A DNA stretch of 64,000 nt from the NCBI RefSeq assembly GCF_041435215.1, contig NZ_CP108394.1:9734001-9798000 (forward strand), written 5' to 3'. Under the pieces are notes generated by a model. The model was not told where the DNA came from, made no database searches, and worked only from the letters and a program-made list of their open reading frames with translations. Source of the stretch: Streptomyces sp. NBC_01314. GTDB taxonomy: Bacteria > Actinomycetota > Actinomycetes > Streptomycetales > Streptomycetaceae. Of the stretch, positions 11,477 through 63,034 are shown piece by piece; positions within the stretch are counted from its first letter, which is position 1, and every line of letters begins with the position of its first letter. Position numbers and translations under genes: made by a program.

Positions 11477-11505
11477 TTCCGGTGCGGACGAGGCGAGCGG
11501 ACGCG

Positions 11506-17428: not shown

Positions 17429-17436
17429 GGGGTGTG

Positions 17437-22600: not shown

Positions 22601-23011
22601 CTGCACCCCCACCTGCACATACAGCTGCTCCAACCGCAGCGGCCGCGACATGTCCAGGATCCGCATGGTCGACAACTCCTGCACCAGCCGCGCACAGTAC
22701 GCCGCCGCCTCCGCCTCCAGGGTGGAGCGCCGGGCGGCCACCCGCTGGGCGGCCCGCTCCCGCTCCTGCTCCTCCTCCCGGGCGGCACGCCGACGCTCAC
22801 GCTCCGTCTGCTGCCGCTCGTGCTCCCACTCCTGCTCCTTCAGCCGCATCTGTGCGGCGGCTTCGAGCTGGATCCGCTGCCGCTCCAGGCTCCGGACGCG
22901 CTGCGACTGCCACAGAGCCACCGCGGCCGCGATCATCGCGGCGAGAAGTCCACCGAGTGCCGTGACGACGGACGCGCTGTCCAGCGCGAGGTGTTCACCC
23001 GACAGCGACAC
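19685..23011 (-). CDS. Membrane-anchored NACHT NTPase with HEAT repeats (NLR-like)
   Basis: 1108 residues, GTG start with a G-rich RBS. Order: one N-terminal membrane helix (ALGGLLAAMIAAAVALW, residues ~18-34), a highly charged coiled coil (~36-110), then a NACHT STAND NTPase with Walker A GDPGAGKTT (202-210), Walker B AALLLDGLDEV (278-288) and a TCRRQGW sensor-like segment. The winged-helix part includes ANPLLLSLIAIVYERD and GFLHLTLQEHFTA. The C-terminal ~550 residues are alpha-alpha (HEAT-like) repeats. STAND NTPases act as ligand-triggered switches, and bacterial NACHT proteins include anti-phage sensors. No separate effector gene is adjacent, so the N-terminal membrane/coiled-coil region may be the output. 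A defence role is inference. Confidence 0.85.
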   Translation of the reverse strand: MSLSGEHLALDSASVVTALGGLLAAMIAAAVALWQSQRVRSLERQRIQLEAAAQMRLKEQEWEHERQQTERERRRAAREEEQERERAAQRVAARRSTLEAEAAAYCARLVQELSTMRILDMSRPLRLEQLYVQVGVQEQQPLRFLSADEVERQARRTDSERRTWRTEAERAEARAAADTQAAVHTYAPVDALQRYRRIVVVGDPGAGKTTMLRHLALRMATQSEHESLPVLPAYVELFRFVESGHASLLDHLAEYWADQYGFEDARDYIVEKLTDGSAALLLDGLDEVLGGESAREAESAYHRVTTELTRLATRFPRAPIATTCRRQGWRGGLPQFQVLEALDFEWPQIETFVANWFGPGDRRRGGLTRALSANGRLQTLAANPLLLSLIAIVYERDLELPERRAALYQRCVEVLLREWDAHRKISRYSRFTTDRKQDLLKEIARHYHQRGLRYFPEDDLLDQIARFLPTIDIAPEESRAILDEIAAQYGLLKPQAHGWYGFLHLTLQEHFTAAALLERGADGIRQAVTARYDPWWEEVILLLAGALPDTSPLLSGLLQLEPDRPRTDGSGLLVLPDDDLFHTDLLLAARCLTGSPRVADVALRREIVATVWDLLGSSLHLDEKRRAAEALVGVARSDEQLDEVIAYICDDQRDGEARLALIQALGAHGGRRVGERLLGAFSLGGVDSVYYLREALITALGTLRVEAAVPALRAELERRLEHVGDGSRRGTWSAAKGIALVVRALGQAGAPADVFLEALERRVRLQWFEVVAAAVRDALKNNREPGTAERLLGLLQQALDDEDVAGAYLDAAGEAGVRTLLDRFRSMGSGTALLTAVRDHIAEGHGRVPRDELLVLVRDNTVTIQARCLALECLDESPGDPEELDRFVRHPDASLRVAASATLAAWGVPVVLDVIRTAIVNGEVVLLDRWNVQEEMDESVSTPHRLVSVLVPYGVSGIVEHLRARAGLQGPDGVKARDWLYAFSPEDEVDGCLYRLRGGEHLEPYEIPNAIPSSRAQAVFRYFQSTPSAGFGTLRRDYEKLLTVAAAAAEGAESVAWLVRFLPGGDLGSTHFPQAHHHAYEASRRARVRVLRDGTVHPIAVTGGSSPA

Positions 23012-44924: not shown

Positions 44925-46781
44925 TCACGCCCTGGTGCCGGTCGGCTGCGCGGGGCAGCCGTCTGCGGTCCGTGATGGGGGTCCCCCCGCTCGAGCGAAG
45001 TCGAGAGTGGGGGAGTGTCCCTCCGGACGCTGGCCCGCCGGACCCGAAGGGCCGGTGGGGGAGGGTGTCCGGCGTCGCCTGGGCGTCGGACGTGTGGTGC
45101 GGTGCCGGGTGGGTCCGGTCTTGGACCGGTCCGTCCGGCTGGTCTTCGGCGCGGGTGTGATGACCGCGCCCGCTTCGAGTTTGTCGGTCACGGTGCGGAT
45201 GGCCATGGCACCGGTGGTGCGGTCGGTGACGGTCTTGGTCTGGTGAGTCAGGCCGCGGGCGGCGATGCGCTTCCAGGCGCCCGCATCGCGGTCGCCCTGC
45301 CAGCCGCAGGAGCCGCACAGGGCCCACTTCCAGCCCGCAATGGTGGGCCGGTCGGGGGCCTTGCGGTGCCGCAACACCTCCAGGCACTGCGGGCAGTGCC
45401 TGGAGGTGTTGCGGGCCGGGACGGTGACCACAGCGATACCGGTCTCGGCGGCCAGGTGCCGCATCCGGTCCACGATCTGCCCGCGCACGGCCTGGGAGAG
45501 CCGGGTGTTCATCGTGCGGCCCATGCCCCGGGCCTCCATCGAGCGCAGGTCCTCCACGTAGATCAGGCTCGCGCCGGCGGCGAGAGCCTGATCGACAGCC
45601 CACCGTGCACCAGCCCGGGCCAGGGCGTCGTTGAGGTTCGACCGGCGCCCGGACACGTGCCGGATCTCCTCGGCCAGGACCTGGTGCCTGGCCGTCAGGG
45701 CGTGCTGTTCGTCTTCGGCGATGAGCCGCTGGTAGTGACCGGCCTTGGTGTGCAGCTGCTCGCCCTGGCGGCGCAGCCGGTGCTGTTTCGCCAAGACCCC
45801 GGCGGCCCGGAACATGCCGCCGCCGAGGGCGGTGATGGTTCCGTCGGCGTGCAGCCGGGCGGCCCCAGCGGACAGCAGGGTATTGAGTCCCCAGTCCACG
45901 CCGAGCGCGACCGTATGCCCGGTCCGCTGTGTCCTGGGGACGGCGTGGGTGTAGGCGAGGTCGGCCCGCACGGTGCCCCGGTGGATGCGCAGGGTGGGCA
46001 GGTGCAGCACCGCGCATCCGGGGACCGTCGGCGGCAGCTTGACGGGGCAGGCCACCCACGTCCAGTCCGCATAGGACCGCGGGTCCGGGCGGGTGGGCAG
46101 TTGCAGCCGCAGCAGCGCCCGGCCCGGCTCGTCGGCGCGTTCGAGGGTGGCCTGCTGCTGGTCGCAGGCGGACAGCAGCAGCATCCGTGCGATGCGGGGC
46201 GCGGCCTCCACCTCGAACACGTTCACCGGCATCCGGCCGTGCTGCTTGACGAACGCGGTGATCTGCCGGGTCCGGCCCTTGATGACGCTGGACGGCAGGT
46301 ACTCCCCGCCGGGCACCGCCGCACGCACCCGGTCCCACTCCTTGGGGGTGCGCCTGACGGGGTCGGCGGGCCAGGTCGCGAGGACCGCGGTGGTGAGGTC
46401 GGCGCGCCACTTCGCCGCACGCAGCGTGCGCCCGGCCGCCTCCTGGGCGATGCGCACGATGCGGTCATTGACCCGGATGCCCCCGGCCGGGCCGACCGTC
46501 CAGCCCAGGCGGCGCAGGGCCATCCAGGCGTTCGACGGCAGCGGGCGGCCTGTGGCGTCCTCACCGGCGGCCAGCACGTCCACACAGGCGGCGTTCCAGT
46601 GCCCGGCCAGCAGCGCGGCGACCATGCCCGACACCAGATCGGCAGCCCAGCCCACCCTCTCGGCCAGCACGGCAGCGGGCAGGAGTTCGCCGCTCTTCTC
46701 CTCCACGCCGGTACGCAGCAGACCGCGGGCACAGGCGGTACGGGGGGTCTCGCCCCCGGCGAGCGGCAGTTTCCGGCTCAC
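44925..46781 (-). CDS. tnpB: TnpB-like RuvC nuclease with N-terminal extension
   Basis: 618 residues, GTG start with an AAGGGGG RBS. The C-terminal core is that of IS605/IS607 TnpB: RuvC-I VALGVDWGLN (D296), RuvC-II IYVEDLRSMEARG (E410), zinc ribbon CPQC...CGSC (463/466, 489/492) and RuvC-III GDRDAGAW (D499; the usual Asn two residues after this Asp is Gly). All three catalytic acids are present, so RNA-guided nuclease activity is plausible. The first ~240 residues are an extension not found in ~400-residue TnpB. After the zinc ribbon comes a ~110-residue basic tail that reads through the palindromic repeat at 44974-45018. No TnpA lies next to it. A guide (omega) RNA would be expected at or beyond the 3' end, around 44780-45000. 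Confidence 0.8.
   Translation of the reverse strand: MSRKLPLAGGETPRTACARGLLRTGVEEKSGELLPAAVLAERVGWAADLVSGMVAALLAGHWNAACVDVLAAGEDATGRPLPSNAWMALRRLGWTVGPAGGIRVNDRIVRIAQEAAGRTLRAAKWRADLTTAVLATWPADPVRRTPKEWDRVRAAVPGGEYLPSSVIKGRTRQITAFVKQHGRMPVNVFEVEAAPRIARMLLLSACDQQQATLERADEPGRALLRLQLPTRPDPRSYADWTWVACPVKLPPTVPGCAVLHLPTLRIHRGTVRADLAYTHAVPRTQRTGHTVALGVDWGLNTLLSAGAARLHADGTITALGGGMFRAAGVLAKQHRLRRQGEQLHTKAGHYQRLIAEDEQHALTARHQVLAEEIRHVSGRRSNLNDALARAGARWAVDQALAAGASLIYVEDLRSMEARGMGRTMNTRLSQAVRGQIVDRMRHLAAETGIAVVTVPARNTSRHCPQCLEVLRHRKAPDRPTIAGWKWALCGSCGWQGDRDAGAWKRIAARGLTHQTKTVTDRTTGAMAIRTVTDKLEAGAVITPAPKTSRTDRSKTGPTRHRTTRPTPRRRRTPSPTGPSGPAGQRPEGHSPTLDFARAGGPPSRTADGCPAQPTGTRA
44974..45018 (-). repeat. Palindromic Streptomyces repeat, variant B, in the tnpB tail
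   Basis: Nearly identical, inverted, to 7486-7531 (ACTCCCCCACTCTCGA ... TCGAGCGGGGGGACCCCCA). It provides about 15 codons of the TnpB-like C-terminal tail (HSPTLDFARAGGPPS), so the present stop codon may be a result of its insertion. Confidence 0.75.
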
Positions 46782-49173: not shown

Positions 49174-49641
49174 ATGGGATCCGTTGAGCGGCCTCGCCGC
49201 ATCGTCGTGCCTCCGGGCACGTCCGTCGCACCCGACGGCATGCGCATCGCCGTGCCACAGCCGCCCGGGCCCGTCAGCACCCGGCAGCAGTTCGCCACCC
49301 GGACGCAGGAACTCCTGGGGCGGCTCCGCCGGTTGGACGCCGCGGTGGACGACGCGGCCGTCCAGGACATCGCCTGCTGGCTGCACGAGCAGTACGCCGG
49401 CCGGGGAGCGCCGGTCCCCGTGGGCTTCGTCGCGCAGTGCCTGCTCGGCTCCCCCTACGTGGACCATCGGCTCGGCCTCGACGGGCGCATCCTGGAGCAC
49501 TGCGCGGCACACGACGTGATGCCGCCGCCGTTCGACGCCGCCCGCATGCTGGCCCGTTCGGGCGCGTACGCCTTCGTCGAGGTGTACGCGGACGGACTGG
49601 TCCTGCCCGTGCTGCCCGACGGCAGTGTCGTCAGGCCCTGA
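49174..49641 (+). CDS. Small soluble protein, first gene of the AAA+ set, unknown
   Basis: 155 residues from ATG 49174 (GGGGG 5-9 nt upstream); an ATG at 49144 lacks an RBS. Starts MGSVERPRRIVVPPGTSVAP. The centre is helical (RTQELLGRLRRLDAAVDDAA, VQDIACWLHEQYAGRG), and the end contains a predicted beta pair (YAFVEVYADGLVLPVLPDGS). No membrane segment or known domain. It precedes the 594-residue membrane protein by 150 nt of repeat-rich DNA; co-transcription is likely. Confidence 0.6.
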   Translation: MGSVERPRRIVVPPGTSVAPDGMRIAVPQPPGPVSTRQQFATRTQELLGRLRRLDAAVDDAAVQDIACWLHEQYAGRGAPVPVGFVAQCLLGSPYVDHRLGLDGRILEHCAAHDVMPPPFDAARMLARSGAYAFVEVYADGLVLPVLPDGSVVRP

Positions 49642-49738
49642 GGCGGCGAACCGCGGCCACACGAACACCACGGCACGGGCGGCACCCACGGCATCCACCA
49701 CGGCATGGCGCCGCACGGTTCGGCACGGAACGGCATGG

Positions 49739-49778
49739 CACGGCCCCGCACGGCACGGCACGGCCCCGCACGGCACGG
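49739..49778 (+). repeat. Two perfect 20-bp tandem copies in a GGCAC-rich spacer
   Basis: The unit CACGGCCCCGCACGGCACGG occurs twice head to tail, inside a wider spacer (about 49668-49784) built of CGGCA/CGGAA/CGGCAT words. It fills the gap directly before the RBS of the 594-residue protein. Confidence 0.75.
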
Positions 49779-49791
49779 AACGGAGACCCGC

Positions 49792-51576
49792 GTGACCGAG
49801 ATCAACATCGGCCCGATCCTCAGCAGCCTCAACAACCTGGAGCGGCAACTGGACCGCTCCGTCCGCTCGCTCGGCGGCCAGATCGAGCAGGTGGACAGTG
49901 AGGTCCGGGACGTCAGAGCCGTGCAGGCGCAGACGAAGGACCGCCTGGAACTGCTCTTCGAGAAATTCCTGGACCACGTCGGGAGAACCGAACGCATCGC
50001 CGCCGCCCAGCGCGCGGAGACCCGTATCGTCCGGATCAACGACGAGGTCGAGCACAAGTACGGCCACCACAAGGTGGTCCGCCGTACCGCGACCGGCATC
50101 CTCCAGGCGTTCGACACCGGGCTCGTCCAGGAGGAGACGGTGCGGCAGGTCAGCGAAGAGCTGATGATCCAGACGCCGCGCTACTGGCTGGCCCCCGCCC
50201 TCGTCGGGCTGGCGGCCTGGGCAGGTGACGACGAGGCCCTGTGCACGCGGGCGGTGGAAGAAGCCTTCCGGCGCTCGACGGCCAAGACGTCCCTCTTCTT
50301 CGCGCTGATCCTCCGCAGGCAGGGGCGTCAGGAGGCCTCCGTCCGCTGGCTGCGGCACTATCTGGAGGGTCAGGACCCCCGCGTGCTCGGCCGCGAGTTC
50401 CAGGTCATCCTGGAGTGCGTCTCCCAGGGCGCCTTCGGACCCCAGGGACGTCAACTGCTCAGCCGGACCCTGGAGGACTGGCGGCAGCGCCTGCTGGACG
50501 ACGACGCCGTACGCGCGGCCCAGGCGGGGCGCTGGCGTCAGGAGATCGACTCCATGCGTGCCCCGTCGGCCGCCGACGACTTCCCGCGCCTGGCCGAAGT
50601 GAGCCCCCAGTGGCCGTTGCTGGACGACGTCCTCGCCCGCGCCCGCGCCCACGAGGCACTCCTGGCCCGGTTCCGCACGCTCATGGAGAGCGAGATCCTC
50701 CCGGCCCACAACCTGGAGGACACGGTCGACGACATCCTCGACAACCTGGTCCGCAACTCGGACGAGGAGGAGCTCCCCCTGCAGCGCGAACTGCTTCTCA
50801 ACCAGGCCATCGTGCGTCACGAGGGGGACGAGGAGGCCGCGCGGAAGGAAGCGGACATGCGGGCCGAGGCGCTCGACGAGACACGCAACTACCTGAGCGT
50901 GCAGTCGGTCGCGGCCCTCGACCCCGCGGCTGTGGGCGCCTCGCCCGCGGCACAGCGGCTGGCCGTGGCGTCGTGCCAGGAGTGGTTCGCGCAGGCGCAC
51001 GCCGGGTTCAGCCGCGACTACCGGGCCGCCATGCCCCCCAAGATCGAGATCTCCCTCCCCAACACCTACGGCGTCAGCCACGGGACCAAGCGCTTCAAGC
51101 TCACGACCTGGACCAAGCCGCTCACCGACGACCTGCCGGACCTGGAGGCGTCGCTGACCCGGCACTGGAACAGTTACGTCGAGATGTACGTCAAGCCCCT
51201 CGCCTACGACTACAGATCCCCGCTCGCCCTCCTCGGCGCCACGGTCACCGCGATCCTCATGATCTTCCTCGGGGTCAACGTCGGGTTCGCGTTCCTCGCG
51301 GCGATCGCCGTCGGAGGGATCTGGGGCGTCGTCCTCTACAACCGCGCCGAAGCCGGCCGCACCGCGCAGGAGCAGGCTCGCCAACTGCTCGGGCGCCACA
51401 TGGAGGAGGCTGTCAACCAACTCCGGGGCGCCCACGCCGAACTCACCGACTGGCAACAGCATTACTGGGCGGCCGACTTCGTGGAGGCCGAGGCCCGCTA
51501 CTTCATCGCCTCCCTGAACACCGCCACCAACGCACCGTCCCCCTTCGAGGGCCGCGTCGTCGGCGCCGACGACTGA
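49792..51576 (+). CDS. Membrane-embedded scaffold-like protein of the AAA+ set, unknown
   Basis: 594 residues, GTG start with GGAG 7 nt upstream. The N-terminal ~60 residues are a coiled coil (ILSSLNNLERQLDRSVRSLG, VRDVRAVQAQTKDRLELLFE). A long helical region follows (~65-400), in part TPR-like (YWLAPALVGLAAWAGDDEAL, TSLFFALILRRQGRQEASVR). Near residues 475-515 two membrane helices form a hairpin (LALLGATVTAILMIFLGV, VGFAFLAAIAVGGIWGVVLY), and the C-terminal helical part returns to the cytoplasm. No catalytic motif seen. Probably a membrane scaffold working with the AAA+ ATPase encoded downstream. Confidence 0.65.
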   Translation: MTEINIGPILSSLNNLERQLDRSVRSLGGQIEQVDSEVRDVRAVQAQTKDRLELLFEKFLDHVGRTERIAAAQRAETRIVRINDEVEHKYGHHKVVRRTATGILQAFDTGLVQEETVRQVSEELMIQTPRYWLAPALVGLAAWAGDDEALCTRAVEEAFRRSTAKTSLFFALILRRQGRQEASVRWLRHYLEGQDPRVLGREFQVILECVSQGAFGPQGRQLLSRTLEDWRQRLLDDDAVRAAQAGRWRQEIDSMRAPSAADDFPRLAEVSPQWPLLDDVLARARAHEALLARFRTLMESEILPAHNLEDTVDDILDNLVRNSDEEELPLQRELLLNQAIVRHEGDEEAARKEADMRAEALDETRNYLSVQSVAALDPAAVGASPAAQRLAVASCQEWFAQAHAGFSRDYRAAMPPKIEISLPNTYGVSHGTKRFKLTTWTKPLTDDLPDLEASLTRHWNSYVEMYVKPLAYDYRSPLALLGATVTAILMIFLGVNVGFAFLAAIAVGGIWGVVLYNRAEAGRTAQEQARQLLGRHMEEAVNQLRGAHAELTDWQQHYWAADFVEAEARYFIASLNTATNAPSPFEGRVVGADD

Positions 51577-51639
51577 GACGACCGAGACGACTGAGACGGC
51601 AGAGACAACCGAGAAGACCGAGATGACTGAGACGACCGA
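51568..51639 (+). repeat. Eight tandem 9-bp units linking two genes
   Basis: Units of GACGAC(C/T)GA, with small variations, run from the last codons of the 594-residue gene through its TGA to 12 nt before the next ATG. Nine is a multiple of three, so copy changes keep the frame; several units themselves contain TGA in frame. Confidence 0.85.
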
Positions 51640-51651
51640 GAGGAAACGACC

Positions 51652-52002
51652 ATGAGCGACGATCTCGCCTCCTTCTCGCCCGATTCGACGCCCCCCTGGC
51701 TCAGGCCCGAGATCCCGGAGCACCTGCGGTCGTTCGCGGCGCCCCCCAGGCCGGAACAGCCTCCCGCCCTACCCGGCCAGCGGGACGCCGACACCGCCCC
51801 GGCACCCGTATCTCCGGCGGTGCCGGCGGCACCGATGGTCACGCCCGCCCCCTGGGCCTCGGCCACGTCGCAGCCGCCGGGGCGGCCCGCCCCTGATCCC
51901 GCCGTCACCAGACGGCTGCGGCAGACCGTGTCCGACCTCCCGGCCTGGGACCCCCTGCCGCCCGGTGAACAACGCGTGCGTCGCCCGCCGAGGGACCTGT
52001 GA
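51652..52002 (+). CDS. Proline-rich disordered protein of the AAA+ set
   Basis: 116 residues, ATG with an AGAGGAAACG RBS. Starts MSDDLASFSPDSTPPWLRPE. Composition is dominated by Pro, Ala and Ser, without predicted helices except near the C-terminus (VTRRLRQTVSDLPAWDPLP). Likely a flexible adaptor. Its TGA overlaps the GTG of the next gene, so the two are translationally coupled and probably made in equal amounts. Confidence 0.6.
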   Translation: MSDDLASFSPDSTPPWLRPEIPEHLRSFAAPPRPEQPPALPGQRDADTAPAPVSPAVPAAPMVTPAPWASATSQPPGRPAPDPAVTRRLRQTVSDLPAWDPLPPGEQRVRRPPRDL

Positions 52003-52553
52003 ACCGCGCCCGGTGGGGAGGCGACAGCGACTACCAGGTCTGGGCCCGGACCCTGGACCGGTGGGCCGAGGGCGAACAGGCCGGCCCCGTCCACCTGCCG
52101 CCGCTGTCCGCCGACGACCTGCCCGCCGACATCTGGCAGCGGCTGCTGGCACGCATCGCCGCCGCCGTCGACCGGCGGCTGCAGAGCGGACTCGACGTGA
52201 TGGTCCGTGAGGTGAACGACGCCTCCGACGAGTTCTCCGTCGGACGGGCCCTCACCCGCGGCCGCGACGTACTGCGCTCCGTTCGCTCCGTCATCACCCA
52301 CACGAGCCTGCCCGCCGACTTCCGCCGACGCATGGCGAGCCTCATGGACGACCACACCCACCGGCTCCAGGAGGAACTCGAACGGGGCGTGCGGTCCCTG
52401 CTCGCGGACGGCGCGGACCCCCACGCCGTCGAGACCCGGCGCCGGACCCTGCGCGACAACCCCCTCACCGCCGTGCTGTCCGAGCCATCCGCCCCGCCCC
52501 CCGTCGGCTGGTACGAGCCGACCGGCGGACGTCGCATCGTCACCCCCGACTGA
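51999..52553 (+). CDS. Helical protein of the AAA+ set, unknown
   Basis: 184 residues, GTG start inside the previous stop. It begins with DYQVWARTLDRWAEGEQAGP and has an amphipathic helical body (DIWQRLLARIAAAVDRRLQS, RRRMASLMDDHTHRLQEELE), suggesting oligomerisation. No membrane segment or catalytic motif. Ends 22 nt before the AAA+ gene. The tight packing with the Pro-rich protein and the ATPase argues for one complex. Confidence 0.6.
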   Translation: MNRARWGGDSDYQVWARTLDRWAEGEQAGPVHLPPLSADDLPADIWQRLLARIAAAVDRRLQSGLDVMVREVNDASDEFSVGRALTRGRDVLRSVRSVITHTSLPADFRRRMASLMDDHTHRLQEELERGVRSLLADGADPHAVETRRRTLRDNPLTAVLSEPSAPPPVGWYEPTGGRRIVTPD

Positions 52554-52575
52554 CGGCATCACGAAAGAGCCCACC

Positions 52576-54141
52576 ATGTCGAACTACTCCGACAGCAAGC
52601 GTGACCTGGACAACTACCTCACCGCGCGGGTGCCCGTCGTCGGACTGCGCACCATCGAACAGGCCCGCGCCCTGCGCATGCTCAAAGAGGTCGCGACCCA
52701 ACCGAGGCGCGCCGGTCAGCAGTTCTGGATCCACACCAGAGCCACCGGTCTGCGCGACCTGCGGTCGGGATCGGCCGTGCTCGACGACCGTTCGCTGACC
52801 GGTGCCATGGACTTCGCCGCCGCCCAGTTCAGCGCCCGCCCGCACGCCACCCTCGTCCTGGTCGACCCCGGGGAGCTGGAGTCCGACACACCCTTCACCC
52901 GTAACGTCGCCGAACTCGCCAGGATCGCCGACACCCACGCCGGATGCGTCGTCCTCATCACGGACAACCCGATCTGGAGCGGCCTGCAACGACTCGGCAT
53001 GAGCCTGCAGTTGGACCTGCCGAACGCCGACGAGATGTACGAGACCATCAGCGGCTTCCTCGGCGACCACCGGGGCATGGTCGCCATCGCCTGGACCGAG
53101 CACGACGCCCGCCGGGCCGCCGAGTTCCTCCAGGGGGTGACCGAGGGCGAAGCGGTGAACCTCCTGGCCACGCTCATCGCCAAGGGATCGGTGGAAGCCG
53201 CCGACGTGCTGGCCCTCGCCAGTTCCAAGGACCGCATCTTCAACAACCTCGCCGGCCTCGAACGCGTCGCCCGCAAGGACGTCGACTACTCCGTCGGCGG
53301 ACTCAGCAACCTGCGCGGGTGGCTGGAGCGCAAACACCGGCTCATCCACACCGACCTGCGGGGCACCCAACTGCGCCCGCCCCGAGGTGTCCTGCTTGTC
53401 GGTGTCCCCGGCTGCGGCAAGTCCCTGTCGGCGAAGGCCATCGCCCAACAGTGGCAACTGCCCCTCTATCGGCTGGACATGGCCAGCATCCACGGCCGCT
53501 ACCTGGGTGAGTCCGAGGGACGGATGCGGGAGGCGCTCGACGCCGCCGACCGGGTCGCCCCGTGCATCCTGTGGATCGACGAGATCGAGAAGGGACTGGC
53601 CGGCGCGCACGACAGCTCCGGCGTCCAGCAGCGCATCATCGGGCAGTTCCTGTTCTGGCTGCAGGAGTCGGACTCCCGGGTCTTCGTGGTCGCGACAGCC
53701 AACGACGTGCGCAGTCTGCCGCCCGAACTGCTGCGCAAGGGGCGGTTCGACGAACTGTTCTTCGTGGACCTGCCGGACGACCAGGACCGCAGGGAGATCA
53801 TCGCCCTCTACTACCGGCGTTATGTGAAAACCGAACCCCATCCGGACCAGGTCGACCGCCTCGTGGATCTCTCCGAGGGCTTCGCGGGCTCCGACATCGA
53901 GTCCGCCCTCCACGACGTCGGCGCCGAGGTCCTGCTGGGCGGCGGGGCGGAGCGCCTCGATCCCTCGTTCGTCGAGGACACGTTCGCCAACACGGCACCC
54001 CTCAGCCGCAGCAACCCCGAACAGATCGAGGAGATCCGCGCCTGGGGCCGGGAACGCGCGGTACCCGCAGGACGGTCCGCCGCCTCCCCCACCACGGCCG
54101 GCGCGGGCACGCCCCGAAGGGTGGTCGTCCTCGGGGACTGA
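52576..54141 (+). CDS. AAA+ ATPase, Ycf46-like
   Basis: 521 residues. A non-conserved N-terminal ~235 residues (a degenerate P-loop-like fold: YLTARVPVVGLRTIEQARAL, ATLVLVDPGELES, CVVLITDNPIWSGL) precedes a classic AAA domain: Walker A GVPGCGKS (276-283), Walker B ILWIDEIEKG (331-340), sensor-1 VFVVATANDV and the second region of homology with arginine finger (LLRKGRFDELFFVDLP). The plan is that of Ycf46/FtsH-clade ATPases from chloroplasts and cyanobacteria, whose roles are poorly known. It should form a hexamer that remodels a protein or membrane complex. It is the only clear enzyme of this six-gene set. Confidence 0.85.
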   Translation: MSNYSDSKRDLDNYLTARVPVVGLRTIEQARALRMLKEVATQPRRAGQQFWIHTRATGLRDLRSGSAVLDDRSLTGAMDFAAAQFSARPHATLVLVDPGELESDTPFTRNVAELARIADTHAGCVVLITDNPIWSGLQRLGMSLQLDLPNADEMYETISGFLGDHRGMVAIAWTEHDARRAAEFLQGVTEGEAVNLLATLIAKGSVEAADVLALASSKDRIFNNLAGLERVARKDVDYSVGGLSNLRGWLERKHRLIHTDLRGTQLRPPRGVLLVGVPGCGKSLSAKAIAQQWQLPLYRLDMASIHGRYLGESEGRMREALDAADRVAPCILWIDEIEKGLAGAHDSSGVQQRIIGQFLFWLQESDSRVFVVATANDVRSLPPELLRKGRFDELFFVDLPDDQDRREIIALYYRRYVKTEPHPDQVDRLVDLSEGFAGSDIESALHDVGAEVLLGGGAERLDPSFVEDTFANTAPLSRSNPEQIEEIRAWGRERAVPAGRSAASPTTAGAGTPRRVVVLGD

Positions 54142-54204
54142 GAGTCGATGACGCGTCCGGCAGGGCGGGGCAGAGCGGGGCAGAGTAGGGCGGAGGTGCG
54201 GGGT

Positions 54205-54792
54205 GTGGGGGACGCGTGGGTGGCTCTGATGGTCGCCTCGGTCGGAGTCGTGGGCACGCTGGGTGCCGCGCTGCTGACGCAGAGCCGGGCCGACCGCACC
54301 AAGCGCCTGGAACTTGAGGCGCTGGCCCGGCAGCAGCGCGAGGAGCGTGAGCACGCCGAACGGGTGCGCCAGGCCGAGCTGTCGGCCGCCCGCGGACGCG
54401 AACTGCTGGATCTCCGCCGTGCCTGCTGTATCGCGCTCAACACCGCCGCCCGGCAGTACCAGACCGCCCAGGTCAACCTGTGGCACGCGCTGAAGGAGGG
54501 CACCGGGGTCGATGCGTGTCTGCAACAGCTGGACGAGCGCCGCTCCGCCCACCGGGAGAGCTACGCCGAGGCCCAGATGATCGTGCCGACGGCCGTGCTC
54601 GCTTCCGCCGGCGCCGTCAGCCGACGGCTCAACACGGGATACGGCACCCTCAAGAAGGCCCTCGCCGGGCCGTCCGTGGACAGCCCGGCGCTGGACGCGT
54701 TCGAGCCGGAACTGCGCACGGCGTGGACGCTGCTCTCGGACATGCGCCACACCATGCGCCGCGACCTGGGAGTCGACGACCTCGGTTCATGA
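54205..54792 (+). CDS. Membrane-anchored coiled-coil protein, last gene of the AAA+ set
   Basis: 195 residues from GTG 54205 (GGAGG 9 nt upstream); ATG 54148 is an alternative that adds a Gly/Arg-rich repeat. One N-terminal membrane helix (AWVALMVASVGVVGTLGAAL) is followed by a long charged coiled coil (RLELEALARQQREEREHAER) and a helical domain (RAYC-type helices; LRRACCIALNTAARQYQTAQ). The arrangement is like the protein at 47756-48307 and the N-terminus of the NACHT protein. Converges with the CHAT gene. Confidence 0.6.
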   Translation: MGDAWVALMVASVGVVGTLGAALLTQSRADRTKRLELEALARQQREEREHAERVRQAELSAARGRELLDLRRACCIALNTAARQYQTAQVNLWHALKEGTGVDACLQQLDERRSAHRESYAEAQMIVPTAVLASAGAVSRRLNTGYGTLKKALAGPSVDSPALDAFEPELRTAWTLLSDMRHTMRRDLGVDDLGS

Positions 54793-54855: not shown

Positions 54856-57800
54856 TCACTGGCCGTGATGAGTGAAAGAGGCCCAGACCTCCAGCTCGTC
54901 CAGCGGGCCGTGCGCGGTGTCCCCGACCAGCGCTTCGAACTCGGCCAGCTCGGGAGGCAGGACCCGGTCGGGGGCCAGCATCCACAACTGGGCCGCGCGC
55001 AGCGCGTCCCGCGGCAACACGCCCCGCTTCATGTGGTGGTGGACGAGAAGCACCAGCAGCGTGGTCCGGGGGTCGTCGGCGACGGCCCAGCGGGAACCGA
55101 CGACCGCCGTGGCCCCCGCGCCCAGGAAGGCCGTCGCCAGGGTCAGCGCCTCGTCATGATCGCTCAGGGTCAGATCGCTCGTGCAGTTGGCGAGCAGGAC
55201 CGTGCCGCCGGGCATCCCGGGATCGCGACCGGCGGCGCCGGTCAGCAGGTCCTGCACCGACACCGTGTGCGTGGCGTCCAGCTTGAGGACGGAGTCGTTC
55301 GAGGTCGGGCCGGTGTCCGCGTGACAGTTGACGTGCAGGAGCGCCGTCGGTGCGGGCCCCCGGCCCGGCAGGAAGGGTTCCAGTGACCGGGGTTCGGGCG
55401 GCAGGGGCGCCGGCCTCGCCCCGTGGGGGTTCCCCGACAAGTTGTCCTCCCGTCCCATGCCGCCGATCACGGTGACCTCAGGGTGGAGGGACGCGACGAG
55501 CGCTGCCTCACGGTGCATCGTGGGGGATCCGCCGGGGTCCACGACGACGGCCACGGCCCCCCGGCCCAGGACGGCCGTGGGGCGGGCGGCCACCTCGATG
55601 AGCTGACGGGCGCTGGCACAGTACGAGATGACGGCCCGCTCGCACGCGTAATCGCCCTTCCCCGTGACCCGCTCACCGAGCGTCGTGAGCCGCTCACCGA
55701 CTGTCGAGGGAGCGGACGCGGGGCAGCGCGCCGCGTGCCAGGGGACGATGCCGAGAGGACCCACGGGCGCGAGGACGATCCGGGGGGCCCGGCCCGGCCA
55801 CCAGGCCTCGGCGGCAGCGAGGAGCGGTGTCATCGCGGCCTCACCGGCCCACGAGCACAGCTGCTGGAGCGCTTGCCGCCACAGTTTCTCCAGGCGCAGC
55901 AGACGCTTCCGGTGGAGTTCGTGCATGACCAGCGGGTGGTGCGGGGCGGGCCGCTCCAGACGGCCCGCCCTCTGGAACGCCTCCAGGGCGGCGGCGTACA
56001 CGCCGACCGGGCCGGCGGACACCGAGGTCAGCTTCGGCAGCCGCAGGGAGCGGACCGCCCCGGTCGCAGTGACGATCACCGCGTGGCCGGGTGCCCCGTC
56101 CTCACCGGGGACGAGGTAGGCCAACGCGTCGGTCCCCAGCCGGCGCAGGGTGCGTCCGAGCGGGGCCGGGCCGGGCGCGGAGAGGAGCCGTTTCTCGGCG
56201 GCGCTGCCCGCCAGCGCCTCCAGTACGCGGCGCCGCAGGTCGTCCGGTACCTCACTCGGTCTGCTTCCGTCGACGGCGGCCCGTACCCATGCGTCGGCGA
56301 GATCGCGCCGGTCGGCGTCCCGGAGCAGATCGGGGACGGTGACGTTCATCGTCGCGGCGTTCAGCACCAGTCCACGGCCGAGTTCGAGCGCCTCGAAAGC
56401 CGACTCGGGCAGGCCGTCGGCGAGGCTCCAGCGGACCAGCCGCAGCATGTCGGGCGCGACGGCCCGCGCGGCTTCCAGCCCGTGGTCCGCGCCCGCCTGC
56501 AGGAGGACGGAGCGGCCGTAGGCGGTCAGCGCCGATCGGGCCGTCTCCCGTGACTGCCGCCGGTGTTCGCCGTCCCGCGGCCCGAAGGCGCGATGGGCGA
56601 GGGCGATGGTCCGGATCAGCGCGATGGCGAAGGGGTCGCCGGGGCTCGCGTTGAGCACCACCCACGCCTCCCGCAGCACGGCGACCGACTCCTCCAGGTC
56701 CTCGCGCCGCCCCGAATCCAGGTGCCGGGCCAGGAGCAGGCTCCCCAGCCCGTACAGGCACCGCCCGCGCGACCCGTGGAACTCGTGCGGGCCCTCCTCC
56801 GCCGCGTCCCTCAGCAGCGCGATGCCCTGGCCGAGAGCGTCATGCCGACCGGGCACGGCCGCCGGCTCGTGTGCTCCGTGAGCTCCGTGTCCGCCGCCGG
56901 ACGGGCCGGGCGCGTCGGCGTCGGCCGGTGCACTATCGACGAGCCTCGGCTGCGCCAGGGCCGCCGCCGCGCGCAGGCACAGCGCGGGGCGGTGCGGACT
57001 CCCGGCAGGGCAGGTGGTCGCCGCCTCGACGAGCGCGGCGACCGACGCCCGGACGGCTGCGTCGTCGCCCGCCTCGCGTGCCTCCCGCAGGGTCCGCGCG
57101 GCCAGTTCGGCCCGGACGGCCGGAACCCTCGGATGGTCCGGCGGCAGCGTGCCCCCGGCCTCCTCCCAGGCCCGCACGGCGTCACCGGCGAGCGCCGCGG
57201 AGTGGCGTCGCCGGGACCGCGAGAGCAGCAGCCACGCCGAGCCGGCAGCCGCCGACAGCTCGGCGCGGAAGGGAACGTGCTCCGTCCGCTCCACGGCGCG
57301 GAAGAGGTGCGGCGGAACCCGTGGATCGCCCGCCTGTGCCAGCACGGTGTGCAGCGGCGGCCGGGTGAGGTGGCTCGGCGTGCGGTCGAGCAGCAGGTCG
57401 TACTCGTGGACGGCGGCGTCGAGATCGGCGTGGTCGCCGAGCAGGACATGCCGGTCCAGGAGGAGATGGGCCAGGAACTCGGCGCACCGGTCGGCGAGGG
57501 CCGAGGAGGCGGGCCCCGCTCGCCGTACGTCGTCCGGCGACGTGGAGCCGAGGACGGTCAGAGCGTGCCGTACGAGGGCGATGGCCCGGGTCAGGTCCTG
57601 CCCGTCCCGCTCCCGCAGCCAGCGGCGGTAGTGCATCAGGGAGCGTGCGGCGGCCTCGGCCGGGCTCGCCGACTCCGGGTCGCCGGACAGGATCTCGGCG
57701 ACCCTGCCCAGGGGAACGGCGAACGGGTCAGGCGAGCCGTCCCCGAGCAGGATGGTCGCGGCGGGGTCGATCGTGGGCGCGGTGAGCGTGCCCTCGTCGT

Positions 57801-60099
57801 CCCGCGGGTCCACGGGGGCGGCGCCCTCCGGCCGGGACGTCGGCGGCTCGGCCGGCCGACGGCGGCTCGCGGCGGCCGGGAACAGGGTTCCCAGCAACGT
57901 CTGGAAGTCGGTCACCGCGCCCTGTCGCAGTGCCTCGTCGATGTGCCGGCGCATCTCGGAGCCGGGCGGGAGCAGGGCTTGTGCCTCGCGCAGCGCTGCC
58001 GTGGCGGCGGCCCGCTCCGCGAAGGTGGCCTCGCCCTCTCTGCCGATGAGGAGTCCCAGTGTGCCCGCGACCGCCAGCATCGAGGCCCTGAGCGCCCACG
58101 CCTCGGGTTCGAGCCGCGGGGCGGCCCGCAGTAACTGGGCCGACCATGTACGGCAGTCGGCCGCCGAGGGCTTGCCGTCCGGTGACCGCAGGAAGTTCAC
58201 CATGACGGATACGAAGACGAAGTGCGGCTCCCGCTCCAGGGTGGCCGGGTCCAGCAGACCGGCGAGCAGGTGCAGATCGTCCTCGACGATGGGGAATCCG
58301 GTGACGTCCGGAAGCGGTGGCCCGCCGGGGCCCTGGGGGACGGCGAACGGGTCGGTGTACCAGACGCGGTACAGCATCGCGGTGAGGAACGACCCGTGGA
58401 GGTTCTCGTCGCGGAACTCGCTGCCGGCCGGAGCGCGTTCCAGGACCACGCGCAGAATCCGCAGGGCGTCACGGAGGGAGTCGTGCCTGACCTGGGGCAG
58501 CGCGCAGGCGAAGTCCAGCAGCAGCGCGATGCCCAGCAGGCACTGGGCGCCCAGCTGGAGCTCGTCCTGGTGGTGGTAGAGGCCGGTGCCCGTGCGCAGG
58601 AGGTCGATGGCCTCCCGGAGGTCCGACACCATGCGCGGCAGCGCTCGGTCCAGGGCCAGGTCCGGATCGGCGGCGCCGGTCACGAGGGCGTGGTTGGCGA
58701 GGTCGTACGCGTACGGCGTACCGCGGCCGATCACTCGCTGGGTCAGAGCGATCGAGGTCTTCAGCACCAGTTCGGCCCGGTCGGTGTCGTCGGGCCCGAT
58801 GAGGGAGGCGAGTTCACGTGCCCGGGCGGTGAGACGGCCGATGCCGTCCTCGTCCAGCAACCCGTCCGACATCTCGATCCAGTACAGGTCGAGGATCCCC
58901 GCCAGACACGCCACCCTGTCCTCATGGACCTCGGCGGCGGCACCACCCGGGCCCGTCCCGGAACCGCCCGCGTCCGCGGCGGCGGAGAGCCGGGTCAGCG
59001 CCTCCTCCCACAGGGCGGCGGCCTCGGCGCGGTCGACGGCGGGTGCGGGATCGTCGGGATGCCGAGCCTTCCGATTGCGCTCGGAGCGTTCCGCCAGGGC
59101 GAGCCCCAGATTCGTCGCGATCCGGTGGGCGGCCTCCTCGGGCAGCGCGGGATGGGCGAGGGCTGTCCGGTACCAGTCCACGGCGGTCGACTGGGCCCGC
59201 TGACCGGCGCCGTACTGCGTGAGCGCGTCGCACACGTCCGCGCCCAGCTCGGCCGCGTCGGCGCCGCCCGGACCACGGTCGGCCAGGAGGGGCCGCAGCA
59301 CGGCCAGCACCGCGCCGAACTCCGAGGAGGCGTCCGGTGATCCGGCCGGACGGTCGGGCTTCTGGTAGCGGTCGCCCAGGGCGAGGTAGGACAGTAACGC
59401 GAGGTCGAAGGCCACGGCGGGGCGCAGGTCCGGGTCGAGGTCGTCGGAGTCGTGTGCCGTCCGCAGGTGTCCGATGGCCGCGTGGCGGTCCGCGAGCCGT
59501 TCGGGGGTGTCGTGTTCGGGGCACCGGCAGCGGTCCGAGAGGACCAGGCCCAGTACCGCCCGGCACTGGGCGGCGTCCGGCAGGTACCGCACGTCCGGTC
59601 CGTCGAGGATCGGGCCGAGCAGGTCGGCGACCCGGTCGGCGTCGGCCGACCGACGGGAGCCGGCCTCGCCCGTACGCCAGCGTTCCGCGAGGTCGAGGGC
59701 GAGTTCGCGGCGGACCAGGACCAGGTCTTCGAGGTCGGGCGGGCCTTCCGGCCCGGTGGACGTGAACGCCTCGACGGTCAGGGAGTGGACGGTGTCCAGC
59801 CGTGCGATCGTGTCGTCCAGGTCCCGGGGTTCCTGCCCGTGCGCGTAGCGGAGCCGGGCCGCGTCGGCCGACAGCCCGAGCAGCAGACGCCGTTCGCCCG
59901 CGCCGGTGGGGGAGTCGGACAGCTCCGCCAGGATCCGCTCCACCTCGTCGACGAGGTCCACGACATGTCCCTGGTCCTCCTGCCCCAGGGCGTCCTCGGC
60001 GGCTTCGAGGAGTTGCAGGACGACATCGATCCGATCAAAACGATCCGTCGCCCCGGATTCACCGGAGTGATCATCCAAACCCTGATTCTCGGTGTACAC
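54856..60099 (-). CDS. CHAT-domain (caspase-like) protease with long TPR-like sensor region
   Basis: 1747 residues from GTG 60099 (AGGGGG RBS); an upstream ATG at 60153 lacks an RBS. The first ~1300 residues are helical, TPR-like (TVHSLTVEAFTSTG, AVDWYRTALAHPALPEEAAH, VAVLREAWVVLNASPGDPFA), and would act as sensor/scaffold. The C-terminal ~430 residues form a CHAT domain: LGTDALAYLVPGEDG at its start, then the catalytic His in LLHVNCHADTGP (H1593) and the catalytic Cys in TVLLANCTSD (C1639), ending with AFLGAGATAVVGSRWAV. CHAT proteases are caspase relatives, known as effectors in prokaryotic conflict and cell-death systems. It faces the AAA+ gene set and is divergent from the RES toxin-antitoxin pair across about 115 bp. 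Confidence 0.85.
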   Translation of the reverse strand: MYTENQGLDDHSGESGATDRFDRIDVVLQLLEAAEDALGQEDQGHVVDLVDEVERILAELSDSPTGAGERRLLLGLSADAARLRYAHGQEPRDLDDTIARLDTVHSLTVEAFTSTGPEGPPDLEDLVLVRRELALDLAERWRTGEAGSRRSADADRVADLLGPILDGPDVRYLPDAAQCRAVLGLVLSDRCRCPEHDTPERLADRHAAIGHLRTAHDSDDLDPDLRPAVAFDLALLSYLALGDRYQKPDRPAGSPDASSEFGAVLAVLRPLLADRGPGGADAAELGADVCDALTQYGAGQRAQSTAVDWYRTALAHPALPEEAAHRIATNLGLALAERSERNRKARHPDDPAPAVDRAEAAALWEEALTRLSAAADAGGSGTGPGGAAAEVHEDRVACLAGILDLYWIEMSDGLLDEDGIGRLTARARELASLIGPDDTDRAELVLKTSIALTQRVIGRGTPYAYDLANHALVTGAADPDLALDRALPRMVSDLREAIDLLRTGTGLYHHQDELQLGAQCLLGIALLLDFACALPQVRHDSLRDALRILRVVLERAPAGSEFRDENLHGSFLTAMLYRVWYTDPFAVPQGPGGPPLPDVTGFPIVEDDLHLLAGLLDPATLEREPHFVFVSVMVNFLRSPDGKPSAADCRTWSAQLLRAAPRLEPEAWALRASMLAVAGTLGLLIGREGEATFAERAAATAALREAQALLPPGSEMRRHIDEALRQGAVTDFQTLLGTLFPAAASRRRPAEPPTSRPEGAAPVDPRDDEGTLTAPTIDPAATILLGDGSPDPFAVPLGRVAEILSGDPESASPAEAAARSLMHYRRWLRERDGQDLTRAIALVRHALTVLGSTSPDDVRRAGPASSALADRCAEFLAHLLLDRHVLLGDHADLDAAVHEYDLLLDRTPSHLTRPPLHTVLAQAGDPRVPPHLFRAVERTEHVPFRAELSAAAGSAWLLLSRSRRRHSAALAGDAVRAWEEAGGTLPPDHPRVPAVRAELAARTLREAREAGDDAAVRASVAALVEAATTCPAGSPHRPALCLRAAAALAQPRLVDSAPADADAPGPSGGGHGAHGAHEPAAVPGRHDALGQGIALLRDAAEEGPHEFHGSRGRCLYGLGSLLLARHLDSGRREDLEESVAVLREAWVVLNASPGDPFAIALIRTIALAHRAFGPRDGEHRRQSRETARSALTAYGRSVLLQAGADHGLEAARAVAPDMLRLVRWSLADGLPESAFEALELGRGLVLNAATMNVTVPDLLRDADRRDLADAWVRAAVDGSRPSEVPDDLRRRVLEALAGSAAEKRLLSAPGPAPLGRTLRRLGTDALAYLVPGEDGAPGHAVIVTATGAVRSLRLPKLTSVSAGPVGVYAAALEAFQRAGRLERPAPHHPLVMHELHRKRLLRLEKLWRQALQQLCSWAGEAAMTPLLAAAEAWWPGRAPRIVLAPVGPLGIVPWHAARCPASAPSTVGERLTTLGERVTGKGDYACERAVISYCASARQLIEVAARPTAVLGRGAVAVVVDPGGSPTMHREAALVASLHPEVTVIGGMGREDNLSGNPHGARPAPLPPEPRSLEPFLPGRGPAPTALLHVNCHADTGPTSNDSVLKLDATHTVSVQDLLTGAAGRDPGMPGGTVLLANCTSDLTLSDHDEALTLATAFLGAGATAVVGSRWAVADDPRTTLLVLLVHHHMKRGVLPRDALRAAQLWMLAPDRVLPPELAEFEALVGDTAHGPLDELEVWASFTHHGQ

Positions 60100-60183
60100 G
60101 AAAGCCCCCTGCCCGCTTCGGGAAATGTCCCGTCCCGGCTCTTGAATTGCCAATCGGATCGTAGCTCACTAGCGTACGGCCGC

Positions 60184-60214: not shown

Positions 60215-60949
60215 ATGGACGAGTACGAGCAGCAACTAATCGTCGCGCTCGTGTCGGAACCGCAGTCGATCCGGGAAAGACTTTCCCAGGAGGACCGGGA
60301 ACAGCTCGATGTTCTGCTGGACCTCGTCGCCGAGGGCGGGAGCGAGCAGCGGTCGCGGGGGATCGCGCGCGCCGTCGCCGCCCATCTGCGCGAGGCCCTG
60401 CCGGACGACGAAGGGAGCGCGGTGGGTCGGCGGTACACCTCCTCGTCGCTGACCCGGCGGCCACCGCACGACGTACTGCTGGAACGCTTCGCGCCGGGCG
60501 GTACGGGCGGCACGCCCGAGGGGTCCCGCACCGCGGGCCCACCCGCCGGACCCGCGGCGACCTCGGGCGGCGGCGGACCGGGCGGCACACCGCCGCCCGA
60601 GGTGCGGTGGGCCTCGGCCCGCGACCGGCTGCTGGCCGAGCCCGCCCTGACGGACGCGGAACTGGCGGAGATCTTCGGCATCGCGGTCGACCAGCCCGAG
60701 CTGATCCGACTACGCGTACCCCAGGGACCTGAACTGCTGCCCGCGTTCCAGTTCGACGGGGAGGGCCGTCCCCGGCCCCTGGTGCTCGCGGTCAACGCGA
60801 TGCTGGGCGCGGCGGCCGACCCCTGGGGTGTGGCCGACTGGTGGCTGGGGCCCAATCTGTGGCTGGACGCCGTGCCGGCGACCCTGCTCGGCGCGGGGCT
60901 GGACGATCAACTGCTCGCCGCCGCGAGCGTGGTGGGGGAGGACGACTGA
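60215..60949 (+). CDS. MbcA/ParS-like antitoxin with N-terminal extension
   Basis: 244 residues, strong GGAGGGG RBS. The C-terminal ~75 residues (LLPAFQFDGEGRPRPLVLAV, AADPWGVADWWLGPNLWLD, AVPATLLGAGLDDQLLAAAS) match the toxin-binding domain of Xre/MbcA/ParS antitoxins, which blocks the NAD site of RES toxins. Before it, PALTDAELAEIFGIA (residues ~145-160) may be the reduced helix-turn-helix. The N-terminal ~95 residues and a Gly/Pro/Thr linker (APGGTGGTPEGSRTAGPPAG) are extra, making the protein well over the usual ~110-150 residues. One nucleotide separates its stop from the toxin ATG. Probably represses its own promoter at 60184-60198. Confidence 0.75.
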   Translation: MDEYEQQLIVALVSEPQSIRERLSQEDREQLDVLLDLVAEGGSEQRSRGIARAVAAHLREALPDDEGSAVGRRYTSSSLTRRPPHDVLLERFAPGGTGGTPEGSRTAGPPAGPAATSGGGGPGGTPPPEVRWASARDRLLAEPALTDAELAEIFGIAVDQPELIRLRVPQGPELLPAFQFDGEGRPRPLVLAVNAMLGAAADPWGVADWWLGPNLWLDAVPATLLGAGLDDQLLAAASVVGEDD

Positions 60950-60950
60950 C

Positions 60951-61634
60951 ATGGCCCGTGGAGCGAAACTCCCCGACAAGGGCACGGCGAACGCGCGGAA
61001 GGTCGTCCGCAGGGCGGGCGAGCTCTTCTACCGGGTGCACTCGCGGCACCGCGCGGCGGACGGCTTCAACCCCGAACCGCAGGACCACCACTTCGGCGGC
61101 GGTCGCTTCGACAGCACTCCGAACGATTCCTACGCGTACCTGTACGCGGCGCCCAAGCCCGAGACCGCGATCATCGAGAGGTTCGTCCGTACCCTGCGCT
61201 TCGACGGCCTGGGCAACTCCCGCGTCCTGCCGCAGAAGGAACTGGAGGGCAGGCTGCTGTCGCAGGTGCGGCTCACCCGGGACGTCGAACTGGTCTCCCT
61301 GTGCAGCATCCTCCACCTCAACGCCGTGCAGCAGAGCGACTGGTGGCTCGTGGAGTCCGAGCCCACGGAGTACGCGTTCACCCGGCGCTGGGGGCACTGG
61401 CTGCGGGCCGAGGCGGACTGGGCGGACGGCTTCGTCTGGCGCTCGCGTCTGGACGGTCCCAACGAGTCCCTGGTCCTGTTCGGCTCCGCCGCCGAGAGCG
61501 ACCTGCTGACCGTGACCGACGAGCCGCCGAGGATCCTCGACGACGAGGACGGTCTGCGCTGGCTGGCCGCGACCCTGGAGGAGTACCGCGTCGAGATCGG
61601 GTCGGTGGACCCCGTACCGGGGATCGGGTCCTGA
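60951..61634 (+). CDS. RES-domain toxin (NAD+-degrading)
   Basis: 227 residues. It carries the residues that name the family: Arg (FYRVHS, R28), Glu (ETAIIERFVR, E76) and Ser (GFVWRSRLDGPN, S165), plus GGGRFDST (R52), YLYAAPKP and the final NESLVLFG. Characterised RES toxins such as MbcT of Mycobacterium tuberculosis destroy NAD+, starving the cell. It is paired with, and follows by 1 nt, an MbcA-like antitoxin, so it is very likely a type II toxin-antitoxin module. It is followed by a strong bidirectional terminator. Confidence 0.85.
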   Translation: MARGAKLPDKGTANARKVVRRAGELFYRVHSRHRAADGFNPEPQDHHFGGGRFDSTPNDSYAYLYAAPKPETAIIERFVRTLRFDGLGNSRVLPQKELEGRLLSQVRLTRDVELVSLCSILHLNAVQQSDWWLVESEPTEYAFTRRWGHWLRAEADWADGFVWRSRLDGPNESLVLFGSAAESDLLTVTDEPPRILDDEDGLRWLAATLEEYRVEIGSVDPVPGIGS

Positions 61635-61888: not shown

Positions 61889-63034
61889 TCAGGGACGCCG
61901 GTCGCTCAGCACGTCGATCACCGCACGGGCGCTGAGCGGATTGCGCGTCACCAGGTGCACCGACCAGTCGGGGTCGGCCCCGAGCACCTGTTCCAGCGTC
62001 CCGACGACGGTCTCGGCGCTGGTCCGCGCGTCGAGGCCGCCCCGGCCGGCCCCGAGCAGGGGCAGCGCGATGGACCGCAGGGGGACCCGCCCGGCACGGC
62101 GTTCGGCCGCCGCCAGCTGGAAGACGCGCCGTACGGCCGCCGCGACGGCCGCGGGCGCCGTCTCGTAGCCGTCGCCCGTCGCCGAGGGCGTGGCGACCGC
62201 CGCGTGGAGGATCCGCCGCACCCCCTGCGCCGACAGAGCGCCCGGTGAGGTGACGGCGACCGTGCCCGCCGCCACCGGGAGACCGGGCACCCCGAACATC
62301 CTTACCCAGTCCGCGAGTTGCCGTGCTATCACGTCGTCCGTGATACGGCCGACGGCGTCCTTCGTGGCCCCGGCCCGCCGCAGGCTGCCGGAGACCGTGC
62401 GCCGGAACGTCTTCGACATCTCGAAGTAGATGTTCTCCGAGGAGACCAGGACGTCCACGCCCGTGACCAGCTCGATGGGTGCCACATGCAGAGTGAGCAG
62501 GACGTCCCCGTGGGAGAAGGCGGCCCGTAACACATGCCGTCCCGCGCGGACGGGTGCGACGGTGCTCTCCGGAGAGCCGGGCCGGGAGTCCGGGAGAGGC
62601 GCCGGCTCGTGACTCCCGAAGCTCATGATCGCGCGGGCCACCTGCTGGAGCATCAGCTTCTCCTGGTGCTTGCGGAACCGCTCCGCCCCGACGCGGTAGA
62701 CATGGGCCGCCCGCTCCCGGCGCTCCTTGCCCGACAGATCACGGGTACCGGAGGCGAAACCGAACGAGTGGAGGGCCGCGTCGCGCAACAGCTCCCCGTC
62801 GAGGCCCAGCACCACGGTGTGCAGCAGGTGTTCGACAGCCTCCGGCCCCCCGCCGTCGCCCGGTGCGGCTGCCTCCGCACCGGGCGAGCGGCCCGCGACA
62901 CACGCGTACAGCGTCTCCAGCTCCGCCTCGTGCAGCCGCAGCAGCCCGAGTGCCCGGACCCGGCCCAGTTCGTCGACCAGCCTGCGCAGCGTCGTCGGGA
63001 GGTCGGGTCCGGCGTGCGGCTGCTCATCGGTCAC
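61889..63034 (-). CDS. Macro-domain-like protein with N-terminal helical domain
   Basis: 381 residues. The N-terminal ~150 residues are helical (LRRLVDELGRVRALGLLRLH, EKLMLQQVARAIMSFGSHEP), perhaps a protein-interaction (effector-associated) module. Residues ~175-375 resemble a macro (ADP-ribose-binding) domain: VDVLVSSENIYFEM in place of the VDaIVNaaN start, VTSPGALSAQGVRRILHAAV, then RSIALPLLGAGRGGLDARTS for the loop that contacts ADP-ribose. The early Asn of active macro hydrolases is replaced, so it may bind rather than hydrolyse. Placed next to an NAD-degrading RES module and a CHAT protease, a nucleotide-sensing role is attractive but unproven. Confidence 0.7.
   Translation of the reverse strand: MTDEQPHAGPDLPTTLRRLVDELGRVRALGLLRLHEAELETLYACVAGRSPGAEAAAPGDGGGPEAVEHLLHTVVLGLDGELLRDAALHSFGFASGTRDLSGKERRERAAHVYRVGAERFRKHQEKLMLQQVARAIMSFGSHEPAPLPDSRPGSPESTVAPVRAGRHVLRAAFSHGDVLLTLHVAPIELVTGVDVLVSSENIYFEMSKTFRRTVSGSLRRAGATKDAVGRITDDVIARQLADWVRMFGVPGLPVAAGTVAVTSPGALSAQGVRRILHAAVATPSATGDGYETAPAAVAAAVRRVFQLAAAERRAGRVPLRSIALPLLGAGRGGLDARTSAETVVGTLEQVLGADPDWSVHLVTRNPLSARAVIDVLSDRRP

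Follow-up and report, generated by a model that had tools for sequence, protein, structure and literature searches.

A recurring five-gene set around a Ycf46-like AAA+ ATPase in Streptomyces and other bacteria

The six genes of the locus

We analyzed a stretch of 64,000 nucleotides (hereafter the window) of the genome of Streptomyces sp. NBC_01314, in which six co-directional open reading frames follow each other on the + strand. Gene 1 (49174-49641, +) encodes a 155-residue protein predicted to be of the alpha/beta type, and gene 2 (49792-51576, +) a putative scaffold of 594 residues with a GTG start, an alternative longer reading from an ATG at 49705 being possible. Gene 3 (51652-52002, +) encodes a Pro-rich protein of 116 residues with a conserved C-terminal motif, LPxWxPLPPGExxVRR, and overlaps gene 4 (51999-52553, +; 184 residues) by 4 nt (51999/52002). 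Gene 5 (52576-54141, +) encodes a Ycf46-like AAA+ ATPase of 521 residues with intact Walker motifs; both this protein and that of gene 4 end in an RR-hydrophobic tail. Gene 6 (54148-54792, +) encodes a protein of 214 residues. The original prediction had described a six-gene set with two membrane proteins. All six frames are open, on the same strand, and at the positions given there, but the conserved unit comprises only five genes (49174-54141). Gene 6 does have one N-terminal hydrophobic stretch, as expected of the membrane-anchored protein that had been proposed, yet it is a lineage-specific neighbour and not a member of the set, which thus loses the second of its supposed membrane proteins. 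Scans of the loci with gene 6 detected it at L009, L010, and L034 alone. The S. scabiei clade has four loci with a complete flank, and these are three of them, the fourth (L025) being negative; gene 6 would have gone unseen at the short loci L002-L004 and at several contig ends. Gene 2 is 93% identical to its relative in S. europaeiscabiei and 88% to that in S. scabiei, and we therefore place the genome near the S. scabiei clade.

Elsewhere in the window, positions 1-11426 hold phage-tail-like genes (Baseplate J, LysM matches, DUF6519), perhaps of a contractile injection system, and positions 19685-22936 (-) encode a NACHT/STAND-type NTPase of 1083 residues. A TnpB/Cas12f-like transposon protein is encoded upstream of the set (44925-46706, -), where the S. 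scabiei relatives have other genes.

The ATPase had been thought the only protein of known fold, and among genes 1-6 gene 5 alone indeed passes a Pfam curated cut-off (C-terminal AAA domain, Pfam AAA, E 2e-31). It is also the only one of the six with significant hits in NCBIfam and PADLOC, which are partial, and the sole match to PHROGs among window genes 1-5. Genes 1-4 have no family match in Pfam, NCBIfam, PADLOC, or PHROGs, and gene 6 has no Pfam match above the curated cut-off; the Streptococcus gene 2 gives a marginal PHROG match to a 62-residue profile (E 5e-4). In an alignment of 12 rows, gene 5 has six invariant residues (K282, S283, D335, E336, R387, and R390), which we take to be those of Walker A, Walker B, and the Arg finger. 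The N-terminal half of this alignment contains no P-loop. In a phylogenetic tree, a branch at 100/100 separates 12 ATPases of the set from 19 other Ycf46-like ATPases. This separation bears on one alternative, namely that the set is a divergent Ycf46-DUF1257-DUF2997 cluster whose small proteins would be represented, in remote form, by genes 1 and 3. The ATPase of the set shares 33-34% identity with its counterparts in L058 and L059, and DUF2997 occurs near both of these and DUF1257 near that of L059, all of which would fit such a descent. Given that the clades are separate and that gene 1 has no profile match to the DUF1257 protein of L059 or the post-ATPase protein of L058 (single-sequence templates, hence a weak test), we regard it as very unlikely.

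In its predicted structure (pLDDT 87.6), the protein of gene 1 is a small domain of the alpha/beta type with no significant fold match. D55, C89, H98, H109, Y132, and E136 are invariant in 24 rows, and the invariance of Cys89, His98, His109, Tyr132, and Glu136 makes this domain a candidate for a possible active or metal site.

An Arg-Arg/Lys-(x)-hydrophobic pattern, picked after the tails had been looked at, occurs within the last 20 residues of 38 of the 43 gene 4 proteins (4.9 expected from shuffles) and 34 of the 35 gene 5 proteins (3.2 expected), against 14 of 79 other Ycf46-like/AAA ATPases used as a control. Genes 1, 2, and 3 showed no C-terminal enrichment of the pattern. A motif search for the LPxWxPLPPGExxVRR of gene 3 was positive in 39 of 42 ORFs, the three misses being a variant (L010), the spurious hit in L060, and an ORF of greater length in L061 in which the motif is nonetheless present. 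Judging from these sequence patterns, the tails of genes 4 and 5 and the gene 3 motif may be docking peptides for common sites on a complex. In many Ycf46-like ATPases of phage contigs (L065-L142), a disordered stretch leads to a terminal R-x-(L/I)-D-hydrophobic tail, which resembles the tail of the set without being identical to it.

Gene 2 had been described as a coiled-coil membrane-hairpin protein. Its strong hydrophobic stretch is directly visible, and a membrane-like stretch is present in 49/49 gene 2 proteins, while the coiled coil and the hairpin come from a predicted model (mean pLDDT 85.5). In this model, a 103-residue N-terminal helix would be followed by a helical solenoid and a small beta part, after which two hydrophobic helices would form the hairpin and a helix of 80 residues would make up the C-terminus, with the N-terminal part forming the coiled coil; the solenoid is TPR-like wherever fold comparison gives any match. 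A protein search gave at least 2354 relatives of the scaffold at E<=1e-10, and a search with the Streptococcus protein as query at least 3019 at E<=1e-20, each search being limited to 7999 candidates. None of the 120 matches listed in either search has a Pfam domain, and those that bear a name are called "hypothetical protein" or "uncharacterized protein", with a single "Small basic protein" among them. Blautia and Ruminococcus have proteins with 75% identity to the Streptococcus scaffold, and in Blautia the scaffold protein (searched with gene 2 only) is present in at least 1000 contigs. The 75% identity between Streptococcus and Blautia suggests horizontal transfer. Relatives of gene 2 of around 600 residues also adjoin a Ser/Thr kinase, which is another module (L044, L181-L183, L185-L187), and the window's genome carries one relative of this type.

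Recurrence of the set

A scan with gene 2 in one genome per species resulted in 36 loci. Together with those from whole-genome searches, annotated records, and viral contigs, the dataset comprises 49 loci, among which are some near-duplicates (L013 is from the same genome as G559, and L032 and L033 are close). The idea that the genes form a co-inherited set around the ATPase was borne out. By tblastn, 38 of the 49 loci contain each of genes 1, 2, 4, and 5, in the order 1-2-4-5 (35 loci) or 2-4-5-1 (3 loci), rather than scattered over the genomes; all five genes were detected in 35. Among the 11 incomplete loci, six end at a contig end (L008, L012, L014, L017, L019, L039). L023 has no detectable gene 1, and L035, L037, and L040 have no tblastn match to gene 4, which blastp clustering does assign in L035 and L040. 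L050 is a real exception, having a gene 2 relative alone (L192). Of the 48 loci in which at least two families were hit, 47 have all hits on the same strand. Only L060 deviates, with a gene 3 hit that falls inside gene 5 on the opposite strand and was rejected as spurious; the true gene 3 can be read there at about 11410-11586.

The order 1-2-3-4-5 is found in actinobacteria and on plasmids of Komagataeibacter nataicola and Comamonas antarctica. The order 2-3-4-5-1 is found in Fusobacterium vincentii, in a record named Streptococcus satellite phage Javan368, and in a Bacillota-like contig (GC 39%) that carries serine recombinases, an ATPase 81% identical to that of Streptococcus, and only a weak match for gene 3. 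Since gene order and co-occurrence recur across phyla, the set is more than a chance association, and we consider it highly probable that its five genes are one functional unit. Their products may form one complex with gene 3 as an adaptor, as was initially proposed.

Few actinobacterial species carry the set. We searched 396 actinobacterial genomes separately for the ATPase and for the scaffold, apparently in the same draw of genomes. The ATPase (E<=1e-120) was found in four, which are exactly those with a scaffold match below E 1e-200, and in these the ATPase and a near-full-length scaffold orthologue lie beside each other. Another four genomes have only scaffold relatives of weaker similarity, with no ATPase at E<=1e-120. 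In Streptomyces, the distribution of the scaffold orthologue is patchy (7 of 199 genomes).

Neighbouring genes in Streptomyces and elsewhere

The CHAT, RES, and macro proteins that had been noted next to the set were all confirmed by Pfam. They comprise a TPR-CHAT protease (54856-60153, -), a RES-domain protein (60951-61634, +) preceded by a partner gene that recurs with RES in this module (60215-60949, +), and a macro-domain protein (61889-63034, -). The CHAT protein is present, in two arrangements, in the fetched 8-kb flank of 17/17 loci (16 from Streptomyces and one from Micromonospora, leaving out L008, L014, L019, and the short loci). A caspase gene is also found in all 12 Streptomyces loci outside the S. 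scabiei clade and in Micromonospora; none was seen at the four S. scabiei-clade loci, nor in the window's genome at E<=1e-40. A related caspase is encoded by 6 of 7 set-bearing Streptomyces genomes versus 13 of 192 others (Fisher p 2e-6, uncorrected for relatedness). We fetched seven of these 13 genomes, which lack the set, and found in the caspase neighbourhoods CHAT in 7/7, RES and its partner in 6/7, and a relative of the window-type macro gene in 5/7. The CHAT-caspase-RES module is thus present without the set in 7/7 fetched cases, and macro-RESp-RES-CHAT-caspase is best viewed as a separable unit, which the set has joined in two arrangements. Conversely, outside Streptomyces and Micromonospora the set occurs without the CHAT-caspase-RES module. 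A stand-alone module of RES, partner, CHAT, and caspase is present in Streptomyces at L174-L179, with macro in 5/6; we found no name for it in the literature searched.

Because the set adjoins protease and toxin-like genes in Streptomyces, these surroundings hint at defence, and we give a role of the set in biological conflict a little less than an even chance. The scaffold is found in 4 of 72,556 plasmid records (one being a 2.1-Mb Fusobacterium record), in 1 of 50,697 phage records, and at two viral-contig loci; four further viral scans found no scaffold. The Streptococcus satellite record stops at the stop codon of gene 1 and has no end-to-end direct repeat. The rarity on plasmids and phages argues against a typical mobile defence system. 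It is consistent with another explanation, in which the five genes would encode a general complex for membrane-protein remodelling or quality control, with no part in conflict, and CHAT and RES would merely share a genomic hot spot with it. AAA+ ATPases of the gene 5 class remodel proteins, and in Fusobacterium and others the set is chromosomal and surrounded by ordinary neighbours. However, a housekeeping task sits poorly with the few actinobacterial species that carry the set (4/396) and with the presence of CHAT beside it in 17/17 Streptomyces and Micromonospora loci, in two arrangements. Hence, we see this explanation as possible but rather doubtful.

The surroundings differ in other hosts. 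In 10 of 14 non-Streptomyces loci (those from the gene 2 species scan whose upstream sequence spans 3.7 kb or more), gene 1 is preceded by an FtsK/EccC-like ATPase, whose best PDB matches are EccC, and by a short gene. We scanned 101 of the 144 neighbours of the non-Streptomyces loci. Many are ordinary metabolic genes. PADLOC matched SspH in 10, mad8 in 11, and TIR, MkoA, caspase, PD-T4-6, and mads in one each, and Pfam FtsK matches 10, which are likely the same proteins as those with SspH and mad8 matches. The set could thus belong to an FtsK/EccC-driven translocation or secretion apparatus, for which genes 1-5 would supply a membrane platform and a recycling ATPase. The upstream pair would suit such an apparatus, as would the HerA-type ATPase upstream of the set in L061 and the small helical 86-residue proteins near it in five loci. 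Yet the FtsK/EccC-like ATPase is absent from L055, L056, L057, L060, and L062, as well as from L023, L027, L032, and L040, and the one small protein scanned has no WXG100 Pfam match, so that we consider this account unlikely. At L041, the surroundings of the set (3929-7482, 13297-14436) include an FtsK/EccC-like ATPase, small helical proteins, and a short protein that is hydrophobic at its C-terminal end. Downstream of the set, L061 carries DnaJ, prokaryotic E2, and E1-JAB genes of a ubiquitin-like pathway (16462-19558).

A possible role and comparison with known systems

Our own proposal is that genes 1-5 encode a single membrane-anchored AAA+ machine. Gene 2 would be the membrane scaffold on which the gene 5 ATPase acts together with genes 4, 3, and 1, the short terminal peptides holding the parts in place. 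Hydrolysis of ATP would remodel a client and thereby silence an effector until a signal is received. The most probable client in Streptomyces would belong to the neighbouring module (TPR-CHAT, caspase, RES and its partner, macro), and the FtsK/EccC-like ATPase may take this part in other actinobacteria. The set would then be an ATP-driven regulator of conflict effectors, acting in an anti-phage or anti-plasmid response that ends in growth arrest. In its full form, this proposal is a tentative one that we think may well be wrong: a widespread, hitherto undescribed membrane-tethered AAA+ complex of five dedicated families with a terminal peptide code (RR-hydrophobic in genes 4 and 5, xVRR in gene 3), serving as an exchangeable regulator that controls CHAT-caspase-RES-macro cell death in Streptomyces.

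The recurring five-gene system is real, and a conflict role for it is plausible. The original prediction knew of no named counterpart, and there is none in Pfam, NCBIfam, PADLOC, PHROGs, or the open-licence literature searched, in which we found no paper on such a five-gene set (PMC8195603, PMC9122126, and PMC6813308 served as background). Four families without a database match and an AAA+ ATPase make up a recurring operon in actinobacteria, fusobacteria, streptococci, and proteobacteria. Should the neighbouring proteases and RES protein be under its control, the set would be a novel type of regulator of programmed death in bacteria; otherwise, it would still be an unassigned AAA+ machine in human-associated bacteria.

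Several known systems share parts with the set. According to Kaur et al. 2020 (PMC7159879), FtsH-containing MoxR-vWA ternary systems have a double AAA ATPase (one inactive and one active domain), helical partners, and caspase-like effectors, and require MoxR and vWA. The set may be alike in the first three of these traits. No MoxR or vWA was found beside it among the ten window proteins scanned, and among the neighbours scanned they occur only in L062 (MoxR and a DUF2201 vWA-like protein) and L018 (vWA). The anti-phage system IetAS has an AAA domain related to that of gene 5, as indicated by IetA hits in NCBIfam and PADLOC. These hits, however, span the AAA domain only, with a score of 71.6 bits versus an IetA cut-off of 510; genes 1-4 and 6 have no protease match that would correspond to the subtilisin-like partner IetS, and the CHAT neighbour belongs to another clan. 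Among TPR-CHAT/caspase modules, Csx29 of Craspase is matched weakly by the neighbouring CHAT protein (29.8 bits versus a cut-off of 300), a likeness of the neighbouring module rather than of the set; the proteins scanned included no products of Cas genes. The EccC-like FtsK ATPase that adjoins the set in many actinobacteria recalls type VII (ESX) secretion, whereas many host groups have the set without it. Finally, Ycf46-DUF1257/Ycf35-DUF2997 clusters resemble the set in combining an ATPase of the broad AAA+ family with small dedicated neighbours. Genes 1-4 and 6 have no Pfam match to DUF1257 or DUF2997, and the set differs from these clusters in having an ATPase in a clade of its own and genes 1-4 as its partners.
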